Positions 1-33,910 of a DNA stretch of 64,000 nucleotides are shown here, one piece after another (the first letter of the stretch is position 1; each line of letters opens with the position of its first letter). This DNA is from Rhizobium sp. Lineage in GTDB: Bacteria; Pseudomonadota; Alphaproteobacteria; Rhizobiales; Rhizobiaceae. The position numbers and the translations under genes were made by a program. The DNA is taken from contig PEKW01000015.1 in the NCBI GenBank assembly GCA_002796995.1, positions 186,001 through 250,000 on the forward strand, read 5' to 3'. The notes below the pieces were generated by a model. The model searched no databases and was not told the origin of the DNA. It saw only the letters and a list, made by a program, of their open reading frames with translations.

Positions 1-84
1 CTCGGCGCGGCCGGACACTTCACCGTCACCGGCGAGTGGAACGACGACCTGATGACCTCGGTCTTGGCACCCTCGGCCAGCTGA
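1..84 (+). CDS. nirK: Copper nitrite reductase NirK, C-terminal end (5' truncated by window)
   Basis: Frame 1 from base 1 reads LGAAGHFTVTGEWNDDLMTSVLAPSAS*, typical of the NirK C-terminus; followed by nirV and nnrR. Confidence 0.75.
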   Translation, partial: LGAAGHFTVTGEWNDDLMTSVLAPSAS

Positions 85-167
85 TCAAGCCCACGCCCAT
101 GCCCGCACCGCGCGGGCATGGGCTCCCACCTCATTTCCCACCGCTCGACTGCCTCCGGGAGGTCGCC

Positions 168-1064
168 ATGTCCGCCATCCGTCACGCCCAATTCGTCTCC
201 GGTGCCTCGGTCGTCTTGCCGGCGCTGCTGATGGTCGCTTTCGTCGGCGGCCTTGGCCTCCAGACAGGCCTGTTCCGGACAGCGCCTGCCGACATTCCCG
301 TACCGGCGACGATCCGGATCGAGCCGCATGATTTCACCTACCGGCCGGCCGGTGAGTTCTACAAGGACGGTTTCGCCGTTGACGCCCCGAAGGTCGAGGT
401 GCGTCGGACGCGGCCGCTCCACATCACCAAGTATCAGGTGACGACCGCCGAATACGACGCCTGCGTCGCTGAGGGCGCGTGCCCGGCCCGCGAGGCCACG
501 ACGCCCTCTTCGTTCGACCTGCCCGCGACGTCGATCAGCCATGACGACGCGACGGCCTATGCCCAGTGGCTGAGCACCCGCACCGACGCGGTGTGGATCC
601 TGCCGAGCGACGAGGACCTCGCATTCGCCGCCGGCTCGAAATTCCCGGATGATGCGCTAGGCGTCGATCCCGACAGCAAGAACCCCGCCCTGCGATGGCT
701 GGCAGACTACCAGCGCGAAGCGGCCCGCAAGGCCTCGCGCGATCCGGCACCGCAGCCGCTCGGCCGCTTCGGCGAGGGCGAATACGGCTTGGCCGACTTC
801 GCCGGCAATGTCTGGGAATGGACCTCGACCTGCAATCGCAAGGTGACCCTCGGTGAGGGCGCGAACGCCGCCTCTGCCAGCGAAAGCTGCGGTATCTACA
901 TCGCCTCCGGCAAACACCGTTCGCCGCTCAGCGCCTTCATCCGTGACCCGAAGAGCGGCGGCTGCTCGGTCGGCACGCCGCCCGACAATGTCGGTTTTCG
1001 GTTGATCCGTGACGATAGCTGGTATGCGAGGCTAGTTTTTGCCTTTCGTCAGGCTGCATCCTAG
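168..1064 (+). CDS. nirV: NirV-like formylglycine-generating-enzyme/sulfatase-modifying family protein
   Basis: FGE-sulfatase motifs (LADFAGNVWEWTST, GFRLIRD), N-terminal signal/TM segment, directly downstream of nirK. Start set at ATG 168 (MSAIRHAQF). Confidence 0.85.
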   Translation: MSAIRHAQFVSGASVVLPALLMVAFVGGLGLQTGLFRTAPADIPVPATIRIEPHDFTYRPAGEFYKDGFAVDAPKVEVRRTRPLHITKYQVTTAEYDACVAEGACPAREATTPSSFDLPATSISHDDATAYAQWLSTRTDAVWILPSDEDLAFAAGSKFPDDALGVDPDSKNPALRWLADYQREAARKASRDPAPQPLGRFGEGEYGLADFAGNVWEWTSTCNRKVTLGEGANAASASESCGIYIASGKHRSPLSAFIRDPKSGGCSVGTPPDNVGFRLIRDDSWYARLVFAFRQAAS

Positions 1065-1157
1065 TCTAAAACCCGGGCTGATTGTTGCTCTTGGGCAGCC
1101 TCGTTCGGCACCCGGCACACTTTTTGGCGCGGGTGCTCGCAGAAAGGATCAGCGACG

Positions 1158-1859
1158 GTGAAGATCGATCGGACCGTCGTCAAGGCTCTTCCGCTGTTCG
1201 ACCGGATGAGCGACGAGGAGCTCGACAAGCTTCTGGCGCACGCGACCTCGCGACGGGTGCCGCAGGGTGAATGCGTATTCGAACAGGGCCAGCCCGCCGT
1301 CAGCTTCTATCTGCTCCTGCATGGCCGCCTGAAGGTGACCCAGGTCACCGAGGACGGGCAGCAGATCATCGTGCGGGTTGTGCATCCGGGCGATCTTTTC
1401 GGCTTTGCCAAGGCGCTGCAGCGCAGCGACTATCCCGGAACCGCGATTGCCGCCGCCGAAAGCCTGACTCTCGGCTGGCCGACGGACCTGTGGCCGAGCT
1501 TCGTCGAACACAATCCACGGCTCGCCGTCACCGCCATGCAGACGATCGGGCAGAGGCTCGAAGAGGCGCATACCCGTATCCGGGAAATGTCCACGCAGGA
1601 GGTCGAACGCCGCGTCGCCCACGCCGTCGTCCGCCTGGCGCGCAAGGCCGGCCGCAAGGAGGAAGGCGGCATCCGCATCGACTTCCCCATTTCCCGCCAG
1701 GACATCGCCGAAATGACCGGCACCACGCTGCACACGGTCTCGCGCATCCTCAGCGCCTGGGAGGGCCTGGGCCTGGTCGAGGGCGGCCGTCAGAAACTGC
1801 TGGTGACGAATATCGTCCGCCTGTCGGAACTCGCCGAAGGGTTCAAGGACCATCCGTGA
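1158..1859 (+). CDS. nnrR: Crp/Fnr family transcriptional regulator, NnrR-like
   Basis: cNMP-binding-like N-terminus and C-terminal HTH (ISRQDIAEMTGTTLHTVSRILSAWE); located between nirV and pseudoazurin; lacks the Fnr N-terminal cysteine cluster. Confidence 0.8.
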   Translation: MKIDRTVVKALPLFDRMSDEELDKLLAHATSRRVPQGECVFEQGQPAVSFYLLLHGRLKVTQVTEDGQQIIVRVVHPGDLFGFAKALQRSDYPGTAIAAAESLTLGWPTDLWPSFVEHNPRLAVTAMQTIGQRLEEAHTRIREMSTQEVERRVAHAVVRLARKAGRKEEGGIRIDFPISRQDIAEMTGTTLHTVSRILSAWEGLGLVEGGRQKLLVTNIVRLSELAEGFKDHP

Positions 1860-1899
1860 GGCACCGAAACCGAAGCGGCGAAAAATTGCGCTTTGTTAG

Positions 1900-1913
1900 T
1901 TGCGCAAGCACAA
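1900..1913 (+). promoter_or_regulatory. Candidate Crp/Fnr-type (NnrR) box TTG-N8-CAA upstream of pseudoazurin
   Basis: TTGCGCAAGCACAA = TTG-N8-CAA, 74 bp before the pseudoazurin ATG. Confidence 0.5.
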
Positions 1914-1986
1914 AGAAGGGCTCGAACGAAGGGCGTATCTCCTGTCCCAACGGATCCGAAGGGTCCCGTTTTCAAGGAGATAAGAA

Positions 1987-2430
1987 ATGTCCATGATGTT
2001 GAAGCGCCTCGCTGCCGCCGCTGTCGTTCTTGCCGCCTTTGCCGGTTCTGCAGCCGCTGCCGATTATGAAGTCCATATGCTGAACAAGGGCAAAGACGGC
2101 GCCATGGTCTTCGAACCCGCTGGCATCAAGATCGCTGCGGGCGACACGGTCACTTTCGTCCCGACCGACAAGGGACACAATGCCGAGACCATCAAGGGCA
2201 TGCTTCCGGCCGGTGCGACCGAGTTCAAGGGCAAGATGAGCGAGAAGGTCACCGTGACCTTCGACGTGCCCGGCGCCTACGGCATCAAGTGCGCACCGCA
2301 TGTCGGCATGGGCATGGTCGGCCTCGTGGTCGTCGGCGACGCTCCGGCCGATCTCGATGCCTACAAGGATGTGAAGGTGCCGAAGAAGGCCCAGGAACGT
2401 TTAGCTGCCGCTCTTGCATCGCTGCAGTAG
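1987..2430 (+). CDS. Pseudoazurin (type I copper electron carrier)
   Basis: Signal peptide, [18 protein letters not shown] and copper-site motif CAPHVGMGM with upstream His (GHNAE). Confidence 0.92.
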
Positions 2431-2584: not shown

Positions 2585-3184
2585 GTGAAATCAGCCATAG
2601 CACTCAGTCTCATCATGACCTGCCTTGCGGCAATATCTCCCGCTGCGGCGGCAGAATGGCAGCCCGTGGAAAAGGTGCAGACCTATTCGGTGCCCGGCGT
2701 CAGCGGCGCGGAACTCTACGCTTCGATCGGTGCGCGGGGACCGAAGCTCAGCATCGGCACCCGGGCGATCGCCCAGACCAGTTTTGCCCTGACCTGGACC
2801 CGCAAATACGAAACGCGCGGCGACGACTGTGTGCTGGCGACGGCCAAGCCCAAGCTCATCATCACCTATGTCCTGCCGAAACCGGCCAATGCCCTGCCGG
2901 CGCCGGTCAAGGCCAACTGGGAGAGTTTCATCAGCGGCGTGCGCGATCATGAACGTGTCCACGGCGACTATATCGTCGAGATGGTGAAACAGATCGAGGC
3001 GGCGACGGTCGGGCTGACCGTGCCGGCGGATCCCAAATGCCGCAAGATCAGGGAGGAGATGACCAAGCGTCTCGGCGCCCTGTCGCAGGAACAACGCCAG
3101 CGCAGCCGCGACTTCGACCGCGTCGAGCTCAGCCCCGGCGGCAATGTTCATACGCTCATCCTTCAGCTGGTGAACGGCGGGTAG
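2585..3184 (+). CDS. DUF922-type secreted putative Zn-dependent protease
   Basis: Signal peptide; HERVHGDY HExxH-like motif typical of DUF922. GTG start. Confidence 0.7.
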   Translation: MKSAIALSLIMTCLAAISPAAAAEWQPVEKVQTYSVPGVSGAELYASIGARGPKLSIGTRAIAQTSFALTWTRKYETRGDDCVLATAKPKLIITYVLPKPANALPAPVKANWESFISGVRDHERVHGDYIVEMVKQIEAATVGLTVPADPKCRKIREEMTKRLGALSQEQRQRSRDFDRVELSPGGNVHTLILQLVNGG

Positions 3185-3695
3185 ACGTCTCTGTAAACCG
3201 ACTCCGGAATGGATGCCGGACAGCGGGTGTGTGGGCGATCCGCATTTGACACACGCGGTGCGCAAAGTGTCCGTCGTCTGCTCCAGGCAAGCAGTTCTGT
3301 GCCGAAAATGGAGGCGTCGAGGGGATTTGCGCGGCGACCGATCGTCAGGGCAGCCGGCCCGGACTGGCAAATGGCGCCAAGGGCCGCGACGATGCGCACG
3401 CCTTAGCCACAATCTCCTGTCGTATGTAATGAAGTGCTAACGGAGTATTGTCGCATCAGCGCTTGCGCAGACGAGTATTTTCAATGTGTTGACCGGACCT
3501 TGGCCGCCGTGCGATGTCGCATTTCCGGCGAGAAACTCCGCAATTGCGCTACCCCCGAATCTGTGCCACAAATTACGTGTGGTTGCGTTTGGGAGAGCTC
3601 AGCCACTTGAAAGCGGGAATATTTTCCGTGGCATACGGGGCGGTTGGAGGCTGCTCCGCTGATGACGATCAGGAAATATTTTTGGGAGGAAAGCC

Positions 3696-4385
3696 ATGTC
3701 GCGGGCAGAATTGTCCGACCACTTGCTTTCGATAAAATCGGCGTTGGTGATCGATGATCATCCGCTTTATTGCGATGCTCTCGCGACCACGATGGAGAGC
3801 ATATTCAATACCCGACGGATTCGAACAGCAACTTCGCTGGGCGAGGCGCTGCAGCAGTTGCGGATGCGCTTCTCGCCCGATCTGATCATACTCGACCTCA
3901 ACCTGCCGGATGCGTCCGGATTGAGCGGATTTATGAAGATCAAGGAGAAGACGCCGGACATTCCGGTCATCGTCATCTCGGCGATCACCACGGAAGGCGT
4001 CGTGCAGTCCGTCATGGCCGCCGGCGCTGCGGGCTTCATCCCGAAGGACACCGGCCGGCAGACCTTCCAGGACGCGATGCGCGACATCTGGAACGGCAAG
4101 ACCTATGTGCCGCCGGGCTATACCCTGCCGACGCGGGCGCAGGCCACGGACCGTTCGGTCGAAACCATATCGCGCAAGATCGCCCACCTGTCGCAACAGC
4201 AGACCCGCATTCTCAGCCTGATCTGCGAAGGCATGCCGAACAAGCTGATCGCCTACGAGATGCAATTGGCCGAGGCCACCGTGAAGGCGCATATCACGGC
4301 ACTGCTGCGCCGGCTCGGCGTGCACAATCGTACGCAGGCGGCGATGCTCGTGCGGGAAGTCTCGATCCGCCATAGCCTGCAGTGA
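3696..4385 (+). CDS. LuxR/NarL-type response regulator
   Basis: REC domain (VIDDH, LIILDLNLPD, KDT) and LuxR HTH (LSQQQTRILSLICEGMPNKLIAYEMQLAEATVKAHITALLRRLGV). Confidence 0.9.
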   Translation: MSRAELSDHLLSIKSALVIDDHPLYCDALATTMESIFNTRRIRTATSLGEALQQLRMRFSPDLIILDLNLPDASGLSGFMKIKEKTPDIPVIVISAITTEGVVQSVMAAGAAGFIPKDTGRQTFQDAMRDIWNGKTYVPPGYTLPTRAQATDRSVETISRKIAHLSQQQTRILSLICEGMPNKLIAYEMQLAEATVKAHITALLRRLGVHNRTQAAMLVREVSIRHSLQ

Positions 4386-5602
4386 CGGAGCCGCGCGCGG
4401 TGGCGGGCCTTTCACAGGAGGACAGCGGCACGGTGACGGCTCTGGAGGATCTCGAACGCAGCCCCGCGAAGGCGGTGCGGATTGCCGTGTCCCATGCCGA
4501 CGAGCCGGCGGCGGCGCTTGCCGACATCCGCCGCCAGCTCGACCATGCCCGGCCGAGCTTCATCCTGCTTTTCGTGCCGAACCGCCTCTCGCCGGAAGAT
4601 ATCGCCGCGGCATTGCCTGCGGCCCTGCCGGACGCCGTGGTCTTCGGCTGCACGACGGCCGGACAGATCACGCCGCGCGGTTATGAAGACGACGCACTGG
4701 TGGCCCTTGCCTTCGAGCGGGGCCATTTTCGTGTGGCGTCGACGCTGTTCAGTCCAATCTCTCCGGTATCGATCGCCGAGGTTGTGCAGCAGACCGAGCG
4801 CCTGGCAGAGCAGTTCCGTGCCACCCCGGGCCGCAAGCGGCTGGCGCTCATCTTTGCCGACGGGCTCTCCAAGCAGGAGGACATTCTGGTCGCTGCCCTG
4901 GAAGCCGGGCTGAAGGATATCCCGGTCTTCGGCGGATCGGCCGGCGACGGCCTGCGGTTCGAGCGGACCCAGGTGCTGCGCAATGGCGAGTTCCACAGCA
5001 ATGCCGCGCTGCTGCTGTTGCTGGAGACCGACCTCGCCTTCTGCGGTCTCGGCTTCGACCACTTCCAGCCGACCGAGAGCCGCATGGTGGTCACCAAGGC
5101 GGTACCCGAGGAGCGGCTGGTGCTGGAGATCAACGGCTCGCCGGCGGCCGAGGAATATGCCCGACTGGTCGGCGTGCCCGTCGATGCGCTGTCCCCGACG
5201 ATCTTCGCGGAGAACCCGGTTCTCGTTCGCAACGGCAATATCTACCATGTGAGGGCGATCCAGCAGATCCACGGCGAGCATGGCCTGACCTTCCTGTCGG
5301 CGATCGACAACGGGCTGCTGCTGACCCTCGGCCGCGGCAAGGAGATCATTCGTACGCTCGACAGCGGGCTGACCGTCACCGACAAGCAGGGAGAGGCGCC
5401 GGATTTCATCCTTGGTTTCGACTGTTATCTGCGCAAGCTCGAGATCGACAGGAAGGGGCTGGAGGCCGAGGCCTCCGACCGCTTCCGCGAACGCCGCGTC
5501 GTCGGCTTCAGCACCTATGGCGAACAGCATCTTGGCGTGCACGTGAACCAGACCTTCGTCGGCGTCGCCTTTTTCCGCCCCAGGGGGAGCGCGCCGCTGT
5601 GA
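4382..5602 (+). CDS. FIST domain (FIST_N/FIST_C) sensory protein, NosP-like
   Basis: FIST hallmarks (VFGCTTAGQI, IPVFGGSAGDGLRF, GFSTYGEQHLGVHVNQT); overlaps the response regulator and the kinase by 4 nt each; GTG start. Confidence 0.8.
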   Translation: MTEPRAVAGLSQEDSGTVTALEDLERSPAKAVRIAVSHADEPAAALADIRRQLDHARPSFILLFVPNRLSPEDIAAALPAALPDAVVFGCTTAGQITPRGYEDDALVALAFERGHFRVASTLFSPISPVSIAEVVQQTERLAEQFRATPGRKRLALIFADGLSKQEDILVAALEAGLKDIPVFGGSAGDGLRFERTQVLRNGEFHSNAALLLLLETDLAFCGLGFDHFQPTESRMVVTKAVPEERLVLEINGSPAAEEYARLVGVPVDALSPTIFAENPVLVRNGNIYHVRAIQQIHGEHGLTFLSAIDNGLLLTLGRGKEIIRTLDSGLTVTDKQGEAPDFILGFDCYLRKLEIDRKGLEAEASDRFRERRVVGFSTYGEQHLGVHVNQTFVGVAFFRPRGSAPL

Positions 5603-7845
5603 TCGATCCGAGCGACCCGTATGAAATCCAGATCGCCAAGCAGGCGAAGATCATCGAGGCGCTGATCAACCGTGCCGAGCGCGGCCATGAGGTGGGCGGC
5701 ACCGCCTATTCCCTGTTCCAATCGGCGATCGCGTTGCAGACCGAGGTCTGGGAGAAAACCAAGGACCTGGAAAAGGCACTCGACACGCTCGGCCGCGCAT
5801 CGAGCGAGCTGGAAATCGCCTATCAGGCGCAGGAGCGCATCCAGCGGAACCTCGCCGATGCCATGGTAGCGATGGAAGGCGGCTTCGCGCTGTTTTCCGA
5901 GGACAAGCTGCAGGTCTGCAACAGCCAGTTCCGCCACCTGCTGCCGGATGTCGAGGAGCTGATCAAGCCGGGGCTCGCCTTCGACGACTATCTCGCGGCC
6001 GTCAATTCGAGCCGCTATCTGTCGCGCGAGGAGGGTGAGGGCGCCACGACCAGGAGCGGTGTCACGGCCACAGCGCAGGGACCTGCGGGGCAGCGCTTTT
6101 CCTCCTTCGTCATGGCATTGCGCAATGATCGCTGGTTCCAGATCTCCTATCGTCAGACCAGTTCGGACAACATGGCCGTCCTGCAGACCGAGATCACCGA
6201 TCTGGTGCGGGAAAACCGGCGCGAGAAGAACCGGCTGATCGACCAACAGGCGCATCTGCTGCAGGCCGCCTTCGATCACATGTCGCTCGGCGTCTGCACG
6301 TTTTCGTCCGGTGGCGAGCTCCTGGTGCGCAACGAACGGTTCGGGGAGTTGCTCGGCATACCGCTTCCGCTGCTGAAGAAGGGCACGCGCTTCCAGCGGA
6401 TCATCGAGCATATCGAGCGCCACGAGATACTCGACAGGCGTTCGCAGGGGCCGGAATTCGCCGGCTGGTTCAAGGCGCTCCGGCGCGGCGAGACCGTGCA
6501 GCGGCGCTTTCGCCGACGCGACGGCATGAGCCTCGACATGCGGCTTCATTCGCTTCCGGACGACGGCTTCATCGTTTCGATCATGGACGTCACCGCCGAA
6601 ACGGAAGCCGCGGCCCTGCTAGAGCGGCGGGTACAGGAGCGCACGGCCGAGCTTACCGAAGCGAACCGGCTCTTGCAGGTCCACGCGAACGAGCAGACGA
6701 AGATCGAAGGCGCGCTCCGGCAGGCGAAAGAGGCGGCCGAAGCCGCGCATGTCTCGAAGACGCGCTTCCTCGCCGCGGCCAGTCATGACCTGCTGCAGCC
6801 GATCAATGCGGCCAAGCTCTATCTCTCCACCCTCACCGAAACCGTCGAACAGTCCGAAGCCAAGGAGGTTGTCAGCCGCCTCAACAGGTCTTTCAACTCG
6901 ATCGAGACCCTGCTGCAGGCCCTTCTCGACATTTCGCGTCTCGACAGCTCGGGCGCCGAGTTCAACATCACGTCCTTCAGCCTCGGCAACATGCTGCAGG
7001 GGCTGGCGGAAGACCTGGCGCCGCTCGCTGCGGAGAAGGGCATAGAGTTGACCATCGTGCCGTCGAGCCGATGGGTAACCAGCGACCAGCGCTATCTGAT
7101 GCGCTGCGTGCAGAATCTGATGGCCAATGCGATCCAGTATACCGAGCGCGGCCGTGTGCTGGTGGGCTGCCGGCTTGCCGGCAACCGCTTTCGGATCGAG
7201 GTGTGGGACACCGGGATCGGCATTTCGGAGAAGGACAAGGCGCGGGTCTTCAAGGAATTCACCCGGGGCGGCGGCGGCAAGGGCACCGGCATGGGCCTGG
7301 GCCTGTCGATCGTGGAGCGCGCGTGCCGGCATCTCGACCACCCCGTCCGGCTCGAATCGCGGCTCGGCCACGGTTCGATGTTTTCGATCGAGGTGCCGCT
7401 TGCCGCGCCCGGTTATGTCGGCAGCGGCGAGAGCGCCATGGTCGAGGCGATGCCCGAGGGCAGCCTCGATCTCATCGTCATGATCGTCGAGAACGATGCC
7501 GACGAGCTCCATGCCATGACGCGCAAGCTGGAAAACTGGGGGGCAAGCGTTCTGGCGGCAGGATCGACGGCGGAGGCCGTGGCGCTGATGCAGGAGATTG
7601 GCACGCCGCCGGATATCCTGCTCGCGGATTACCAGCTGGACGACGAGGATACCGGCATAGACACGATACGCACGCTGAGGGCTCTGTCGGGCGAAGAGAT
7701 CCCGGCGGTCATCATCTCGGCCAATCGCCAGCGCGAGCTCTTCCAGCTCGGCCAGGAAATGTCGTTCTCCGTGCTCAACAAGCCGGTACAACTGGTGCGG
7801 CTGAGGGCGCTCATCGACTGGCAGACCCGTGGCCGCGCGGCATGA
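5599..7845 (+). CDS. PAS-domain hybrid histidine kinase with C-terminal receiver (NahK/ErcS-like)
   Basis: H-box AASHDLLQPINAAKLYLS, HATPase (VQNLMANAIQYTERG, GLGLSIVER), REC (LLADYQLDDEDTGID); GTG start overlapping the FIST stop. Confidence 0.88.
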   Translation: MIDPSDPYEIQIAKQAKIIEALINRAERGHEVGGTAYSLFQSAIALQTEVWEKTKDLEKALDTLGRASSELEIAYQAQERIQRNLADAMVAMEGGFALFSEDKLQVCNSQFRHLLPDVEELIKPGLAFDDYLAAVNSSRYLSREEGEGATTRSGVTATAQGPAGQRFSSFVMALRNDRWFQISYRQTSSDNMAVLQTEITDLVRENRREKNRLIDQQAHLLQAAFDHMSLGVCTFSSGGELLVRNERFGELLGIPLPLLKKGTRFQRIIEHIERHEILDRRSQGPEFAGWFKALRRGETVQRRFRRRDGMSLDMRLHSLPDDGFIVSIMDVTAETEAAALLERRVQERTAELTEANRLLQVHANEQTKIEGALRQAKEAAEAAHVSKTRFLAAASHDLLQPINAAKLYLSTLTETVEQSEAKEVVSRLNRSFNSIETLLQALLDISRLDSSGAEFNITSFSLGNMLQGLAEDLAPLAAEKGIELTIVPSSRWVTSDQRYLMRCVQNLMANAIQYTERGRVLVGCRLAGNRFRIEVWDTGIGISEKDKARVFKEFTRGGGGKGTGMGLGLSIVERACRHLDHPVRLESRLGHGSMFSIEVPLAAPGYVGSGESAMVEAMPEGSLDLIVMIVENDADELHAMTRKLENWGASVLAAGSTAEAVALMQEIGTPPDILLADYQLDDEDTGIDTIRTLRALSGEEIPAVIISANRQRELFQLGQEMSFSVLNKPVQLVRLRALIDWQTRGRAA

Positions 7846-7919
7846 GCCAATACCGACCAATGTCTGCGGTGACTAGCGCGCCGGCCGGACTAGGCTCAAC
7901 GGAAAAAGGGAGGTTTGCC

Positions 7920-8600
7920 ATGCGCGTCTTTCTGCTTCTTCTCGTCTTCCTCGGCCTGACCTCCGCGCCGCTCTCGGCCGCGGAGACCTATGATCTGCTG
8001 TTCCGCAAGGGCGCTCTCTCCGGCCTCGAGCCATCGCCGCCGCCGCCCGAGGGCGCAAAGGGAACCGACACGCTGGTCTATGAGCGCGTGGTCTCTCCCC
8101 TGAAGAAGGGCGAATCCGCCGACAAAGACACGATCGGCCTGCAACTGACCTCGGACGACAACGTCGCCCTGATCCTGCACCGCGGCCCGCAGATGCGTTT
8201 CATCGGCACCTTCCCGGCCTCGGTCGGCAATCCGCTCATCATGTATTTCCTCGAAAGCGCGCTTGCCGACATTGCGAAACAGTCGGGCGGCAGTCCGTTC
8301 TACATGCGCAACCGGATCAAGGAGGCCCTGCTGAAGGATGCCGAAATCGTGCCGGTCTCGCTTCACTTCGGCGAGCGTGACATATCCGCGAGACAGGTGA
8401 CGATCCGGCCGTTCGCCGAGGACAAGGCTCGGGCCCAGATGGGGCGCTTCGCCGAGCTGGCGCTTGCCGTCACCGTTTCGCAGGACATACCCGGGTGGTA
8501 CTACTCGTTGCAGGCCACTGTTCCTGAAGGCAAGGGCGAGGCGGATATCGGCTACACCGCGGCGATCACCCTGTCGGACGGCGGGGAGAACAAGCCATGA
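7920..8600 (+). CDS. Uncharacterised exported protein
   Basis: ATG with RBS-like GGGAGG upstream, signal peptide (MRVFLLLLVFLGLTSAPLSAAE), continuous ORF; no family recognised. Confidence 0.7.
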   Translation: MRVFLLLLVFLGLTSAPLSAAETYDLLFRKGALSGLEPSPPPPEGAKGTDTLVYERVVSPLKKGESADKDTIGLQLTSDDNVALILHRGPQMRFIGTFPASVGNPLIMYFLESALADIAKQSGGSPFYMRNRIKEALLKDAEIVPVSLHFGERDISARQVTIRPFAEDKARAQMGRFAELALAVTVSQDIPGWYYSLQATVPEGKGEADIGYTAAITLSDGGENKP

Positions 8601-8947
8601 GGCGGGCGGCGCTCTGCCTCGCGGCGACCCTGCTGGCCGCGCCGGCCCTCGGGCAGAGCGTTTCCGAGCGCCTGAACGACTATCCGACCGAGGCCCGCAC
8701 GGACTATGTCTTCGGCTGCATGGCGACCAATGGTCAGAACCGCGAGGTGCTGCGCAAATGCGCCTGTTCCATCGACACCATCGCGTCGATCCTGCCTTAC
8801 GAGAAATATGTCGAGGCCGAGACGGTGCTCGCCCTGCAGCAGGGAAGCGGCGAACAGCTGGCGATGTACAAGACGGCGGTCGTGTCGCAGACCATGGTCG
8901 CTGAACTCAGACGCGCCCAGGCCGAGGCCGAGATGCTCTGCTTCTGA
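8597..8947 (+). CDS. Uncharacterised small exported cysteine-containing protein
   Basis: Signal peptide, 4-nt overlap with upstream ORF, cysteines FGCMATNG...KCACSID. Confidence 0.7.
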   Translation: MRRAALCLAATLLAAPALGQSVSERLNDYPTEARTDYVFGCMATNGQNREVLRKCACSIDTIASILPYEKYVEAETVLALQQGSGEQLAMYKTAVVSQTMVAELRRAQAEAEMLCF

Positions 8948-8965: not shown

Positions 8966-9778
8966 TCAGGCGGGCGGGCGTTTCGGCAATACCCGGTCGA
9001 AGGCGTTCCCCTCTGTGTCGACGGCATGCACCGTGAAGTCGGGCGAGCCATTGTCGATGTAGTTGAAGCGGAAGACCGGATTTTCGCTGATCGAGATCCC
9101 GCCTTCGAGCGAGAACAGCAACTCGTCGCCCTGGCGGACTTCGAGTTCGTTGATGAAATGCGCGCCGATGAACAACTGGGTGACCTGGTCCCGCTGCAGC
9201 CCGGAATAATTGGGATGGCGGATCATGATCTGCGCTTCGCGCCGCGAAGTCTGGTCGGGAACGGGAAGGTCAAAGAGCTTCAGCCGCATGTCGCCCATGC
9301 CCGTCAGCGCTGCTGCCGAGTCCTTGGTGGCGGGCGCGGAACAACCGCCGGACGCCTTGACGAAGCGCCCCGTCATGTAACTGCCGTTCGGTGTGTCGGC
9401 GATGACGCGGATGTTGGAATATTGGTTGACCCTGACGCGCGTCTCGAACTTCAGCGGCATCATCGCCGGCCCGAAGCGGATTTCGGCGGCCACTGGCGCC
9501 GGGTTTTCGTCGATCACCAGCTTGATGGCATTGATCGGGCCGCCGGTCGGATCGGTCTGCTCGATCGTCACCGGCACGACCGCCGCGTCGTCGGCGCGAT
9601 AGGGTGCGATGAGGGATAGAAGCGGCGCGGCGTCACGCAGAACAGCATCGCCGGCAATCGCGTCCTTGATGGTGTTCCATGTCGGTCCATCGACCAGGGG
9701 ATTGTCGGGCAAAGCTTCTTCTGCGCTGGCAAGGCCAGCGGCGAGCAAGAAGGACAATCCTGCCAGTACCTGTCTCAT
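8966..9778 (-). CDS. Quinoprotein dehydrogenase-associated SoxYZ-like carrier (copy 1)
   Basis: Signal peptide, SoxY-like half, internal SGGCSAP linker cysteine, SoxZ-like half (MIRHPNYSGLQRD...ISENPVFRFNY). Start ATG at 9778. Confidence 0.78.
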   Translation of the reverse strand: MRQVLAGLSFLLAAGLASAEEALPDNPLVDGPTWNTIKDAIAGDAVLRDAAPLLSLIAPYRADDAAVVPVTIEQTDPTGGPINAIKLVIDENPAPVAAEIRFGPAMMPLKFETRVRVNQYSNIRVIADTPNGSYMTGRFVKASGGCSAPATKDSAAALTGMGDMRLKLFDLPVPDQTSRREAQIMIRHPNYSGLQRDQVTQLFIGAHFINELEVRQGDELLFSLEGGISISENPVFRFNYIDNGSPDFTVHAVDTEGNAFDRVLPKRPPA

Positions 9779-9948
9779 GACGGTCAGTCCCCGGTTCAAG
9801 GACCAGACACGGCGTGTCGCCGTGTGGAAATGCATCATACTCCAGCGGGCCGATGCGCAGAACCGAGCCTTTCGGATGTGTTGCGGGGTGGCGGGCGCGG
9901 TCCCAGGCTGAGCACGACCAAGTGTTTGAGGCGGATCGGAGGTGAGAC

Positions 9949-11013
9949 GTGTTCGAGGCATTCGTGACGATCTGCCTCTTGGCATCTGTCGATCCGCAAG
10001 GGACCGCCGCTGCGCAGGAGGCCTGCCGCACCGCGCTTCTGCCGGGTCATGCGGCGGCCAGCAAGACCGATTGCGAGGCACAGGTCTTCGCCAGTCCGCC
10101 CGCATGGCTGTCGAAGAGCAGTGCGGACAAGCCGTTCTGCGCGGAAAGACCACGATCGCGTCTCGCCTTTACCGAGGTGATGCCGGGCCTGTTCGTCCAT
10201 CGCGGCGCGATCGCAGAGCCGGACGCGACGAATGCCGGCGATGTCGCCAATATCGCCTTCATCATCGGCGATGACAGTATCGCGGTTATCGATTCCGGCG
10301 GCTCGCGTCAGGTCGGTGAACAAGTCTATCTCGCCATTCGTGAGCACAGCGACCTGCCGATTTCGCACCTGATCCTGACGCATATGCATCCGGATCACGT
10401 GTTCGGTGCCGAGGCGTTGCGAGAGGCAGGCGCCGTGGTCGTCGGGCAGCAGAACCTGCCGCGGGCGCTCGCCGATCGGGCCGGCAGCTACGAGACCAGC
10501 TTCGGCCGGCTGATCGGCGCGCAGGCCTTTCTCGGCAGCCGCATCATCGCTCCGGATCGCAATGCGGCGCCTTCGGAAACCATCGACCTCGGCGATCGGG
10601 TTCTTGAGCTTCGCTCCTGGCCGACCGCGCATACGGGTACGGATCTGACGGTCCTCGACCGCACGTCTCGGGTGCTGATCGCCGGCGATCTGCTGTTCGA
10701 CGAATATGCGCCGGCGCTCGATGGTTCGCTGAAGGGCTGGCGCGCGGTGATGGGCGAGATGATGCTGATGCCGGCAAGCCAGGTGGTTCCCGGTCACGGG
10801 GGCCCCATACTCGCCTGGCCGGAAGCGGCGGCACCTCAGTCGCGCTATCTCGGCGTGCTGGAAGCGGATACGCGCGTGGCGCTCAAGGACGGATTGACGC
10901 TCGGTGCGGCGATCAAGGTGATCGCACGCAGCGAGGCGGGGCACTGGCAGCTGTTCGACCTGCACAATCCGCGCAACGCCACCGTCGCCTATACGGAGCT
11001 CGAATGGGAATAA
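9949..11013 (+). CDS. Quinoprotein-associated SoxH-like zinc metallohydrolase (metallo-beta-lactamase fold)
   Basis: THMHPDHVFGAE, HTGTDLTVLD, GDLLFDEYAP, VPGHGGP metal-site motifs; N-terminal secretion-like region with cysteines; GTG start. Confidence 0.82.
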   Translation: MFEAFVTICLLASVDPQGTAAAQEACRTALLPGHAAASKTDCEAQVFASPPAWLSKSSADKPFCAERPRSRLAFTEVMPGLFVHRGAIAEPDATNAGDVANIAFIIGDDSIAVIDSGGSRQVGEQVYLAIREHSDLPISHLILTHMHPDHVFGAEALREAGAVVVGQQNLPRALADRAGSYETSFGRLIGAQAFLGSRIIAPDRNAAPSETIDLGDRVLELRSWPTAHTGTDLTVLDRTSRVLIAGDLLFDEYAPALDGSLKGWRAVMGEMMLMPASQVVPGHGGPILAWPEAAAPQSRYLGVLEADTRVALKDGLTLGAAIKVIARSEAGHWQLFDLHNPRNATVAYTELEWE

Positions 11014-11616: not shown

Positions 11617-11781
11617 GAAGTCCCTCCTCGACTTGTGTCACTATAGGCAAACGGAGGGAGATGCCAAAGGTGCCGATTTACACACTAAGGTCGCAATTGT
11701 CAGTGCGCTTGGCTCGTCTGTAGTCTCACCCCAAGGTCGCAAAGGCCGGCATTCAATAACGCAGATACCGGGAGGCATTCC

Positions 11782-12909
<1,128 letters not shown>

Positions 12910-12917
12910 GCGGGCCG

Positions 12918-13748
12918 ATGGAACTCGTATCGCAAAACCAGTGCTTCGGCGGCACGCAGTCGGTCTACCGGCATCGCTCCGAGGTTTGCGGGGGCGAAAT
13001 GACCTTCGGCCTCTTTCTGCCGCCGCAGGCTGGGAACCGGCCGGTACCGTTGCTCTGGTACCTGTCGGGCCTGACCTGCACGCATGAGAATGCCATGACC
13101 AAGGCGGGGTTGCAGCGTCATGCGGCGGAGCACGGTCTGGCGCTGGTCTTTCCGGATACCTCGCCGCGAGGCGAGGGCGTGGCCGACGACCAGGCCTACG
13201 ACCTTGGCCAGGGAGCTGGCTTCTATGTCAATGCGACGCAGAAACCCTGGTCGCGGCATTTTCGCATGTACGACTACATCGTTTCGGAATTGCCCGATCT
13301 GTTGATGGCGGAACTGCCGCTCAGCGGGGTGCACGGTATCACCGGCCATTCGATGGGCGGGCATGGCGCCCTGACGATCGCCTTTCGCAACCCGGCGCAG
13401 TTTCGTTCGGTGTCCGCCTTTGCACCGATCGTCAACCCGACCCGGTCGGACTGGGGACGCAAGCAGTTCTCTGCCTATCTCGGCGATGACGAGGCGCACT
13501 GGGTGGAATACGACGCCTGCCTGCTTCTGGCCGAACGGGGCTGGGCCGGCGAGATCCTGATCGACCAGGGCGCGACGGACCAGTTCCTCGAGCAGCTGCG
13601 TCCCGAGGCCATGGCCAGCCTGATCGCGGAGCGACGCCAGCCCGGCGTCCTGCGCATGCAGGCCGGTTATGATCACAGCTACTATTTTGTTGCGAGTTTC
13701 GGCGAGGACCACGTGCGCTGGCACGCCGAGCGGCTCAACGCCGCGTGA
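12918..13748 (+). CDS. fghA: S-formylglutathione hydrolase
   Basis: Esterase D family: LSGLTCTHEN, GHSMGGHGAL; coupled to adhC (alternative TTG start at 12906 overlaps the adhC stop). Confidence 0.93.
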   Translation: MELVSQNQCFGGTQSVYRHRSEVCGGEMTFGLFLPPQAGNRPVPLLWYLSGLTCTHENAMTKAGLQRHAAEHGLALVFPDTSPRGEGVADDQAYDLGQGAGFYVNATQKPWSRHFRMYDYIVSELPDLLMAELPLSGVHGITGHSMGGHGALTIAFRNPAQFRSVSAFAPIVNPTRSDWGRKQFSAYLGDDEAHWVEYDACLLLAERGWAGEILIDQGATDQFLEQLRPEAMASLIAERRQPGVLRMQAGYDHSYYFVASFGEDHVRWHAERLNAA

Positions 13749-14022: not shown

Positions 14023-15825
14023 ATGAAACGACTTCTCACATTGCTTGCCGTGTTGACCATAGGCGGCTCACAGGTCGCCTTCGCCAATCCGGATCTGCAG
14101 AAAATCATCGATGACCCCAACCAGTGGGCCATCCAGACGGGCGACTACGCCAACCAGCGCTATTCCAAGCTCGACCAGATCAACAAGGGAAATGTCGGCA
14201 AGATGCAGGTCGCGTGGACCTTCTCGACCGGCGTCCTGCGTGGTCACGAAGGCTCGCCACTGGTCATCGGCGACATGATGTATGTGCATTCGCCGTTCCC
14301 GAACACCGTCTTCGCGCTCGACCTGAGCAAGGAAGGCCAGATCGTCTGGAAATACGAACCGAAGCAGGACGCAGACGTCATTCCGGTGATGTGCTGTGAC
14401 ACCGTCAACCGCGGCGTGGCCTATGCCGACGGCAAGATATTCCTGCACCAGGCCGATACCACGGTCGTTGCGCTCGACGCGAAGACCGGCAAGGTCGTGT
14501 GGAGCGTCAAGAACGGCGATCCGAAGAAGGGCGAAACCAACACCGCGACCGTTCTGCCGGTCAAGGACAAGATCATCGTCGGCATTTCCGGCGGCGAATT
14601 CGGCGTGCGCGGTTCGGTCACGGCCTATGCCATGGCCGACGGCAAGCTTCTGTGGCGCGGCTATTCGATGGGTCCCGACAGCGACACGCTGATCGATCCC
14701 GAGAAGACCACCCATCTCGGCAAGCCGGTCGGCGCCGACTCTGGTCTGAACACCTGGGAAGGCGACCAGTGGAAGATCGGTGGCGGCACGACCTGGGGCT
14801 GGTATTCCTATGATGCCGAAGAGAACCTGATCTATTACGGCTCGGGCAACCCTTCGACCTGGAACCCGTCCCAGCGCCCGGGCGACAACCGCTGGTCCAT
14901 GACGATCTTCGCTCGTGACGCCGACACCGGCGTGGCCAAGTGGGTCTACCAGATGACCCCGCACGACGAATGGGACTATGACGGCATCAACGAGATGATC
15001 CTGACCGAACAGGACATCGACGGCAAGGCACGCAAGCTGCTGACCCATTTCGACCGTAACGGCTTCGGCTATACGCTCGATCGCGTCTCCGGCGAACTGC
15101 TGGTGGCCGAGAAGTACGACCCCGCCGTCAACTGGGCGACCGAAGTCGTGATGGATCCGAAGTCCGACCAGTATGGTCGTCCGCAGGTCGTCGCGCAGTA
15201 TTCGACCGAACAGAACGGCGAAGACGTCAACTCGACCGGCATCTGCCCCGCCGCGCTCGGCACCAAGGACCAGCAGCCTGCGGCCTATTCGCCGAAGACC
15301 CAGCTGTTCTACGTTCCGACCAACCACGTCTGCATGGACTACGAGCCCTTCCGCGTCAGCTACACCGCCGGCCAGCCCTATGTCGGGGCGACGCTTTCGA
15401 TGTATCCCGCACCGGGCAGCCATGGCGGCATGGGCAACTTCATTGCCTGGGACGGCAAGGAAGGCAAGATCAAGTGGTCGCTGCCTGAGAAGTTCTCCGT
15501 CTGGTCCGGCGCACTCGCAACGGCTGGTGACGTCGTATTCTACGGCACGCTCGAAGGCTACCTGAAGGCCGTCGATTCCGAGACCGGCAAGGAGCTCTAT
15601 CGCTTCAAGACCCCGTCCGGCATCATCGGCAACGTCATGACCTACACCCATGGCGGCAAGCAGTATGTGGCCGTGCTCTCGGGTGTCGGTGGCTGGGCCG
15701 GTATCGGCCTTGCAGCCGGCCTGACCAACCCGAACGAAGGTCTCGGCGCCGTGGGCGGCTATGCAGCCCTCAGCGACTATACCGCGCTCGGCGGCACGCT
15801 CACCGTGTTCTCGCTGCCGAACTGA
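14023..15825 (+). CDS. xoxF: Lanthanide-type PQQ methanol dehydrogenase XoxF
   Basis: Signal peptide, vicinal Cys-Cys (VMCCDTVN), quinoprotein W motifs, DEWDYDG (second Asp = Ln-ligand position). Confidence 0.96.
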
Positions 15826-28427: not shown

Positions 28428-28556
28428 GCAAGGCCAAAGCGCTCCTCCCCCCGAGCCCTGTCCGCGTCTCTTCCTTCCGGAAGCGAGAACGGGCGGGGCT
28501 TGAGGTCTTCGGGGGATACAGGCCTGCCGGTCCGTACGGGTTCGACAGCAATAGAC

Positions 28557-29269: not shown

Positions 29270-29965
29270 CTACCTTTCGTTCTGGACGAGGGGACGGGTC
29301 GCGCTGTCTGAGGCGTGGCGCAGGGCGGCGATGTTACCGGCATAGGCATCCGCGCCGCCCTTGAAGATCGCCGAGCCGGCGACGAGGATGTCGGCGCCGG
29401 CCCGGGAAACGAGCGGCGCGGTCTCGGGTGTCACGCCGCCGTCGATTTCGATCACGATCGGACGGTTGCCGATCATCGCCTTGATGCGCGCGACCTTGTC
29501 CACCACGGCCGGGATGAAGGCCTGGCCGCCGAAGCCGGGATTGACCGTCATCAGCAGGACGAGGTCGAGGCGGTCGAGCACGTATTCGATGACGTTTTCA
29601 GGCGTCGAGGGATTGAGCGAGACGCCGGCCTTGCAGCCGAGGTCACGGATCGCCTGGAGCGAGCGGTCGAGATGGGTGGTCGCCTCGGCATGGACGGTGA
29701 CGATGTCGCAGCCGGCATCGGCGAAGGCGCCGAGAAAGCCATCGACGGGCTCGATCATCAGGTGGCAGTCAAACACCTTGTCGGTGCGGTTGCGGATCGC
29801 CTTGATCACCGGCGGGCCGAAGGTGATGTTGGGCACGAAATGCCCGTCCATGACGTCGAGATGGATCCAGTCGGCGCCGGCGCGGCAGACTGCTTCCACT
29901 TCCTCGCCGAGACGCGAGAAATCGGCAGACAGGACCGAGGGGGCAATGATGGTCTTCGGGCTCAT
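29270..29965 (-). CDS. rpe: Ribulose-phosphate 3-epimerase
   Basis: [48 protein letters not shown]. Confidence 0.96.
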
Positions 29966-30906
29966 GCTGTCTCCTGAGGATGTTCGGGCGGTGCGGCCGG
30001 CTTCATGGCAAAGACGCGGCTTGCGGCAATGTCGCGGCCGATGATGGTCGAGAGCTGCTCCGCGTTGACCGGGCCCTTGGTTTCCTCGAACAGGCGGTTG
30101 GCCTGGCGCAGGCGCGCCCGGTCGAGCGCGTTGCGGATGGAGCGCGCATTGGCGAAATGCGGCTGGCTGCGCCGGCGGGCGATATAGTCGGTCATCACGG
30201 CCGTCGCTTCCGCGTCGAGATGGTAGCCCTGCCGCTCCAGCATGGTCTCGGCGATCGACAGCAATTCGTCGTTTGCATAGTCGGGGAAGTCGATGTGGTG
30301 GGCGATGCGCGAGCGAAAGCCCGGATTGCTTTCGAAGAAGCGATCCATGCGGTCGGAATAGCCGGCGAGGATCACGACCAGATCGTCGCGGTTATTCTCC
30401 ATCACCTGTAGCAGGATCTCGATCGCTTCCTGGCCGTAGTCGCGCTCATTGTCCGGACGATAGAGATAGTAGGCCTCGTCGATGAACAGCACTCCGCCCA
30501 TGGCCTTCTTGAGGATCTCCTTCGTCTTCGGCGCGGTGTGGCCGATATACTGCCCGACGAGGTCATCCCGCGTCACCGAGACGAGGTGGCCCTTTCGAAT
30601 GTAGCCGAGGCGGTGGAGCAGGTTCGCCATGCGTAGCGCCACCGTCGTCTTGCCGGTGCCGGGATTGCCGGTGAAGCTCATGTGCAGCGACGGCGGCTCG
30701 TGGGAGAGCCCCATGGCGCGGCGGGCGCGCTCGACCAAGAGCAGCGCTGCCGTCTCGCGGATCCGCCGCTTCACGGGCTTGAGGCCCACAAGGTCGCGGT
30801 CGAGCTCTTCGAGGATCTCGGCGACGCCCGAGGTCCGGTATTCCTCGGCGAGGTCGACCGAAGTCGGCGGGCTCTCCTGCGTCACGGTTGTCTCGGGCAT
30901 AGCCAT
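29962..30906 (-). CDS. cbbX: RuBisCO activase CbbX (AAA+)
   Basis: [51 protein letters not shown]. Confidence 0.96.
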
Positions 30907-30921
30907 TGTCTCGTCCTTTCG

Positions 30922-31311
30922 TCAGCCGGTCGTCGACCAGGAGTAATGCTGAGAGCGGCCCGGGCCGTCGGTACGCGTCATTCTGAGATCCGGTTCCTTG
31001 TCCGGCCGGTTGACGATGAAGGACATCGTCACCGTCTCGAAACCGCGGTTGGAATCGAAGGCGTTGAGGCGGATGTAGGTCTGCGGATGAGCCTTGCGGC
31101 AATCATCGAGCTCCATCATCACGCCCTTGGCGTCCTTCAGGTCGAACATCGGATTGCCCCACATTTCCCAATAGGTGTTGCGGGGGTGGGGATCGTCGGT
31201 GTACTCGACGCCGATCGCCCAGCCCTTGCGCAGGCAGTATTCCACCTGCGCGGTGATCTGCTCGTCCGTCAGGTCCGGCAGGAACGAGAAGCAGCCTTGG
31301 GTGATACGCAT
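30922..31311 (-). CDS. cbbS: RuBisCO small subunit
   Basis: MRITQGCFSFLPDLTDEQITAQVEYCL...WEMWGNPMFDL. Confidence 0.96.
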   Translation of the reverse strand: MRITQGCFSFLPDLTDEQITAQVEYCLRKGWAIGVEYTDDPHPRNTYWEMWGNPMFDLKDAKGVMMELDDCRKAHPQTYIRLNAFDSNRGFETVTMSFIVNRPDKEPDLRMTRTDGPGRSQHYSWSTTG

Positions 31312-31338
31312 TGTCGTTTCTCCTTTTCTCTCGCTCTG

Positions 31339-33910
<2,572 letters not shown>

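Follow-up and report, generated by a model that had tools for sequence, protein, structure and literature searches.

What do a response regulator, a FIST protein and a PAS hybrid histidine kinase sense and control when their genes lie between a denitrification cluster and a methanol oxidation block? The question is raised by three overlapping genes in a stretch of Rhizobium sp. DNA (contig PEKW01000015.1), which was analysed over its whole length of 64 kb and is called the window here, and for which an earlier note had proposed that the trio senses nitric oxide (NO) or a one-carbon (C1) metabolite and controls xoxF and adhC. Reading from sequence, we find that the trio is probably an FlhRS/AfdRTS-type regulator of glutathione-dependent formaldehyde oxidation that heads a conserved methanol/formaldehyde block, as suggested by the order and overlap of its genes, by its clade and conserved synteny, and by a promoter motif that accompanies it. 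The trio belongs to a regulatory type that is already known, its left-hand neighbour being unusual, and the FlhRS, AfdRTS and RfdRTS systems, whose gene order it has, were not named in the earlier note. Its genes are as follows.

3696..4385, + strand: response regulator, FlhR/AfdR-like; ATG start, 229 aa; Pfam PF00072 and PF00196 (receiver and GerE/LuxR helix-turn-helix)
4382..5602, + strand: FIST protein in the AfdT/RfdT/orf2 position; GTG start, 406 aa; Pfam FIST (FIST_N) and FIST_C
5599..7845, + strand: PAS hybrid histidine kinase, FlhS/NahK-like; GTG start, 748 aa; Pfam PAS_7, HisKA, HATPase_c and Response_reg

Both junctions are 4-nt GTGA overlaps, which confirms the layout described previously. 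The response regulator retains both phospho-acceptor motifs (DDHP and DLNLP) and shows 86-92% identity to its counterparts in Sinorhizobium and Agrobacterium a22-2, and the hybrid kinase contains SHD at 395 together with receiver motifs. There is a single copy of the FIST gene in the genome. Since the order regulator-FIST-kinase, with FIST followed directly by the kinase, is kept in 42/43 relatives of the same clade, the arrangement is not due to chance.

The same order is found in regulators that control adhC-type formaldehyde dehydrogenase genes, namely FlhRS, AfdRS and RfdRS (PMC4776306; also PMC8879981). Each of the pairs afdR-afdS and rfdR-rfdS of Rhodobacter sphaeroides, and flhR-flhS of Paracoccus denitrificans, encloses an extra open reading frame (ORF), afdT, rfdT and orf2, respectively, the role of which is described as unclear in a review (PMC4776306). 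The flhR-orf2-flhS genes activate flhA/fghA, and afdR-afdT-afdS activates adhI with formaldehyde (PMC4776306, PMC8879981). The window trio matches these systems in its R-T-S order and in its link to adhC/fghA; however, flhRS sits away from flhA-fghA, whereas the window trio itself heads the methanol/formaldehyde block. The assignment of the middle protein to the FIST/NosP family covers the window trio and its relatives, and not AfdT, RfdT or orf2 themselves.

We then examined the neighbourhood of the trio, in which the following genes lie downstream of the kinase.

7920..8600, + strand: hyp1, uncharacterised protein with a signal-peptide-like N-terminus, a regular neighbour of the trio
8597..8947, + strand: hyp2, uncharacterised small protein with a signal-peptide-like N-terminus
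8966..9781 (start approximate), - strand: quinoprotein dehydrogenase-associated SoxYZ-like carrier (TIGR04557, 266.6 bits, cut-off 140)
9949..11013, + strand: quinoprotein relay system zinc metallohydrolase 2 (TIGR04559, 376.7 bits, cut-off 280)
11782..12909, + strand: adhC (flhA), S-(hydroxymethyl)glutathione dehydrogenase, probable target of the trio; 93% identity to the annotated Sinorhizobium meliloti gene
12906..13748, + strand: fghA, S-formylglutathione hydrolase; 86% identity to the annotated S. meliloti gene
14023..15825, + strand: xoxF methanol dehydrogenase, in the same block (TIGR03075, 778 bits; 90% identity to S. meliloti)

Neither hyp1 nor hyp2 gave any Pfam or NCBIfam match. On S. 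meliloti pSymB the trio is likewise followed by hyp1, hyp2, the SoxYZ carrier, the metallohydrolase, adhC, fghA and xoxF, and nir genes are absent upstream of that trio; this block recurs in Rhizobiaceae and Rhodobacterales. In 42/43 clade loci hyp1-hyp2 lie near the trio, including those of Paracoccus, where adhC and xoxF are not adjacent. Using tblastn, we annotated named loci from genome contigs and plasmids and scored C1 and denitrification neighbours within ~10 kb, with 40 arbitrary 20-kb segments of alphaproteobacterial genomes as controls. A C1, alcohol, aldehyde or pyrroloquinoline quinone (PQQ) gene was found nearby in 73/89 related loci compared with 1/40 control segments; the 89 loci are phylogenetically kin and were gathered via the window's own protein family, so that a Fisher p-value does not give a fair probability here, and the contrast with the controls is large nonetheless. 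This supports a link of the trio to PQQ alcohol oxidation, which the earlier note had mentioned for the kinase NahK/ErcS'.

Past the methanol block, genes for the RuBisCO large subunit, a CbbX-like AAA protein and ribulose-phosphate epimerase were recognised from their translations on the - strand at window positions 29270-32799, and they are consistent with a Sinorhizobium-like route of XoxF plus Calvin cycle.

We next searched upstream regions for motifs gene by gene and compared the scores with those of shuffled sequences. The adhC promoters gave the motif ACacACcAagGTCgcaATTG (score 598; shuffled 277-281), the hyp1 promoters GACaAAAGTCgGC.aTGACA (798; shuffled 313-336) and the gfa promoters CGATAC.aa.GGcTGaATTG (388; shuffled 199-207). 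The likeness of the adhC motif to the gfa motif and to the hyp1 motif was matched in 0/200 column permutations each, and that between gfa and hyp1 was weaker (15/200). In the window these correspond to two sites.

11680..11699, + strand: adhC promoter motif ACACACTAAGGTCGCAATTG, 20 bp, 82 bp before the ATG, proposed response-regulator site
7853..7876, + strand: conserved motif CCGACCAATGTCTGCGGTGACTAG upstream of hyp1, 24.3 bits, found in 32/42 loci

When the adhC matrix was run across the window, its own site scored 31.0 and the next best was the hyp1 promoter (13.2 and 12.5). Among 30 Rhizobiaceae adhC promoters, the proteins of which are 87-100% identical, the motif is confined to the one linked to the trio (31 bits), and the other 29 score <=5.9. 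The second adhC of the same genome (G000:C28:243373-244494, L192) is a 97% identical paralogue, and its promoter scores -3.1, so that the two copies are apparently a housekeeping and a regulated one. In another trio-bearing Rhizobiaceae genome the adhC promoter scores 20.0, and in two Roseovarius genomes, in which adhC lies away from the trio, the motif is present with scores of 22.1 (same contig, ~27 kb off) and 29.5 (different contig). This co-occurrence, a correlation, favours the view that the trio controls adhC within the clade. The earlier claim of control over both xoxF and adhC is therefore borne out as probable for adhC; for xoxF no shared site was found, as motif discovery in the xoxF upstream region and in the trio's own promoter gave ribosome-binding sites only. 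An earlier set of apparent adhC and xoxF upstream motifs was rejected, as these proved to be parts of the coding regions of adjacent genes. The adhC motif also matched at window position 28556 (weakly, 11.8 bits), in L061 (22.2) and in L071 (28.3), in each case with no downstream gene in our annotation, and these are possible further targets.

To place the FIST protein we scored it and the kinase against curated models. The FIST protein reaches 369 bits with the NosP model NF041558, below its cut-off of 450, as do the other members of its clade that were tested (272-370), compared with 596 for Pseudomonas chlororaphis NosP and 498 for Azospirillum. Likewise, the kinase falls below the cut-offs of NF041831 (426 vs 1500) and of NF041832, the NahK/ErcS C-terminal model (365 vs 400). 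The window FIST does combine FIST_N and FIST_C with an adjacent kinase gene, as NosP proteins do, and the kinship of the trio to NosP/NahK, as judged by these scores, is real but distant; the relation proposed in the earlier note, a two-component module kin to NosP-NahK, is supported. In a quick tree the window FIST falls in a 44-row clade (SH-aLRT, Shimodaira-Hasegawa-like approximate likelihood ratio test, 99) that contains the block members from Rhizobiaceae, Rhodobacterales and Paracoccus, nearly all with hyp1-hyp2 directly after the kinase, and the NosP-type proteins of Pseudomonas, Halomonas and Azospirillum fall outside it. In several Paracoccus species FIST is a single-copy gene that also lies within this clade.

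Comparison with characterised NosP systems shows the same mixture of likeness and difference. NosP-NahK of P. aeruginosa (PA1975-PA1976) and PP_2663-PedS1-AgmR of P. putida share with the trio a FIST gene beside a PAS hybrid kinase gene, with a LuxR regulator and genes of PQQ alcohol oxidation in the vicinity (PMC12997753), but the trio differs from these systems in scoring below the NosP and NahK cut-offs, in its separate clade and in its adhC/xoxF neighbourhood. NosR-NosP-NosK of Burkholderia pseudomallei likewise places a regulator, a FIST protein and a kinase in one operon of three genes; however, the output domain of NosR is a degenerate HD-GYP and no sensory domain is recognised in NosK (PMC12570481), whereas the window trio has a LuxR-type helix-turn-helix and a PAS hybrid kinase.

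AfdRS and RfdRS have no conserved cysteines, which leaves their sensing of formaldehyde unexplained (PMC4776306), and the FIST protein carries a conserved one. In an alignment of 118 FIST proteins, Cys348, Glu381 and His387 are present in 118/118, Cys90 and Arg351 are near-invariant and His227 is conserved in the clade. A signature of clade-specific cysteines for formaldehyde was considered and rejected, as Cys90 and Cys348 are conserved throughout FIST. AlphaFold gave a confident model (mean pLDDT, predicted local distance difference test, 90.5; pTM, predicted template modelling score, 0.88), and the best solved-structure match found with Foldseek was human FBXO22, a FIST-domain E3 ligase subunit (E 6e-7, probability 1.0), with no significant PDB relatives by sequence alone. 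The bacterial FIST_C profile pairs FACVGR...GNGE of FBXO22 with [DS]CxxR...[YF][GSA]E of the bacterial proteins, and, counted along the printed alignment, C326/R329/E362 of FBXO22 align with C348/R351/E381 of the window protein, which puts the cysteine and the glutamate that activates it in FBXO22 at aligned positions on a shared fold. FBXO22 C326 forms an aldehyde hemithioacetal, the adduct having been detected by mass spectrometry, with cryo-EM density in support, and its E362A substitution lowers activity (PMC11208438, PMC13316043). The two proteins share this fold and the Cys...Arg...Gly-Glu site and differ in that FBXO22 belongs to a eukaryotic ubiquitin ligase and has no kinase partner. 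We found no publication tying FBXO22 aldehyde chemistry to bacterial FIST proteins or formaldehyde regulators, within incomplete literature coverage.

In the mechanism that we propose, the kinase would phosphorylate the response regulator, which would bind the motif sites at 11680-11699 and 7853-7876 and activate adhC-fghA and hyp1-hyp2. With less certainty, the FIST protein would be an auxiliary sensor that binds the kinase as NosP does NahK and has an aldehyde as its signal: formaldehyde would form a reversible hemithioacetal on Cys348, activated by Glu381 in the manner of FBXO22 Cys326/Glu362, and the adduct would alter the FIST-kinase contact. Taken by itself, the role of the FIST protein as the aldehyde-sensing step is a tentative proposal, and the extension to NosP-family FIST proteins in general, in which Cys-x-x-Arg...Gly-Glu would capture formaldehyde or another metabolic aldehyde and switch the kinase, is put forward just as cautiously.

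Several observations weigh against this regulator-and-sensor reading. In an R. sphaeroides rfdT mutant the expression of adhI with formaldehyde was unchanged (PMC4776306), a result that speaks against an essential T protein in one species, with the reservations that its close relative afdT is present in the same cell and that RfdRS is the repressor arm. FlhRS, AfdRTS and RfdRTS were compared with the window trio by gene order and published description. The FBXO22 match is weak at sequence level (E 0.055), so that the case for the site rests on fold and motif, and FBXO22 chemistry is known with drug-like aldehydes (synthetic degraders), not formaldehyde (PMC11208438, PMC13316043); moreover, as Cys348 and Glu381 are invariant across all FIST proteins examined, they do not single out formaldehyde. 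With regard to the promoter, Paracoccus has the trio and its adhC promoters are without the motif, the assignment of the motif to this regulator is a proposal, and a genome-wide search with <=2 mismatches gave 9 matches compared with 12 for the reversed control, so a larger regulon cannot be read from it.

Alternatively, the FIST protein could bind heme and NO derived from NirK, act on the kinase and so couple denitrification to methanol oxidation. This is the input favoured by the local setting: the nor-nir cluster adjoins the trio in this genome, as a run norCB(QD)-hemN-nnrS-nirK-nirV-nnrR-paz (L002 8464-20003 and window 1-2430, gene names read from translations) in which nirK lies just outside the window and which directly abuts the methanol block. 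The adhC class of enzyme also reduces S-nitrosoglutathione. The FIST protein is kin to NosP, and NosP proteins have been reported to sense NO through heme and to serve a kinase encoded next to them (PMC12570481, PMC11784011); invariant His387 and conserved His227 could serve heme, although no residue of the FIST protein could be assigned as heme ligand. The placement described in the earlier note is correct, with xoxF beginning at 14023 and 1266 bp between the end of pseudoazurin (2430) and the trio, but another ORF (2585-3184) lies in this gap together with ~510 bp of non-coding DNA, which makes a single operon of trio and nir genes unlikely. At the DNA level the window resembles its closest relatives only from 3534-3738 onwards, at or slightly upstream of the regulator gene, and the nor-nir cluster is therefore a separate module; its adjacency to the methanol block was absent in the relatives examined. 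No nirK, norB/C or nirV was found near any of the 89 related loci, nor in the 40 control segments, nnrS lay within ~10 kb in 2/89, and norB is absent altogether from 13/29 close carriers. Furthermore, the FIST protein scores below the NosP cut-off in another clade, and the regulator's output is DNA binding and not cyclic di-GMP. No FNR/NnrR-type box (<=1 mismatch) precedes the trio, adhC or xoxF, which is a weak negative because the FNR consensus also missed the nor-nir promoters, giving just two one-mismatch matches, both inside the nirK ORF. Within the first 27 kb, TTG-N8-CAA occurs without mismatch just once, as TTGCGCAAGCACAA at 1900-1913; this copy precedes pseudoazurin and may be an NnrR box. 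H-NOX, an alternative NO sensor, is absent from the genome. Beyond local adjacency, nothing in the locus or its relatives favours NO, and the NO input proposed earlier is not supported: it is possible, given the heme-NO proteins reported in the family and the conserved histidines that are kept, yet we regard it as quite improbable. A FIST-site thiol could in principle react with an NO-derived species, which would be a mechanism different from the heme one.

The signal could also be methanol, the PQQ/quinoprotein state or another small molecule of the pathway, and neither formaldehyde nor NO. The family-wide link extends to PQQ alcohol dehydrogenases and pqq genes besides formaldehyde genes, and the block includes the quinoprotein-relay SoxYZ-like and metallohydrolase genes; however, Azospirillum has the family beside aldehyde dehydrogenase/DUF779 with no PQQ enzyme within ~10 kb, and the reactive-Cys site points to an electrophile, which makes such a signal unlikely, if worth keeping in view. 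On the output side, the adhC/hyp1 motif could serve another regulator that travels with the block, leaving the trio to control something else. The pairing of motif and regulator is sequence-based and fails in trio-bearing Paracoccus, but the response regulator of the trio is the only transcription factor recognised by annotation in the conserved block and the flhA/adhI promoters are known targets of FlhRS-type systems, and we consider a second regulator rather improbable.

In two Azospirillum loci (L036 and L042), genes annotated as NO-sensing NosP-NahK lie directly behind aldehyde dehydrogenase and DUF779; no nir or nor gene was found nearby, and L036 has one nnrS slightly beyond the scored distance, ~11 kb away. 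The NO label on these genes may be misleading. The FIST family adjoins alcohol and aldehyde genes far more often than denitrification genes.

Formaldehyde regulation of the FlhRS type has been known genetically for more than 20 years. The protein between regulator and kinase at this locus is a FIST protein with a family-invariant cysteine that aligns with a proven aldehyde-capturing one, which offers a testable lead on the sensing step of AfdRS/RfdRS, and the promoter motif is a concrete candidate site for regulator binding. The locus also cautions against inferring NO sensing from an automatic NosP label. If aldehyde capture by the FIST protein is true, it would explain formaldehyde sensing by FlhRS, AfdRS and RfdRS and change how the NO-sensor label on many members of the family is to be read; the aldehyde chemistry of human FBXO22 would then go back to an ancient role in signalling.

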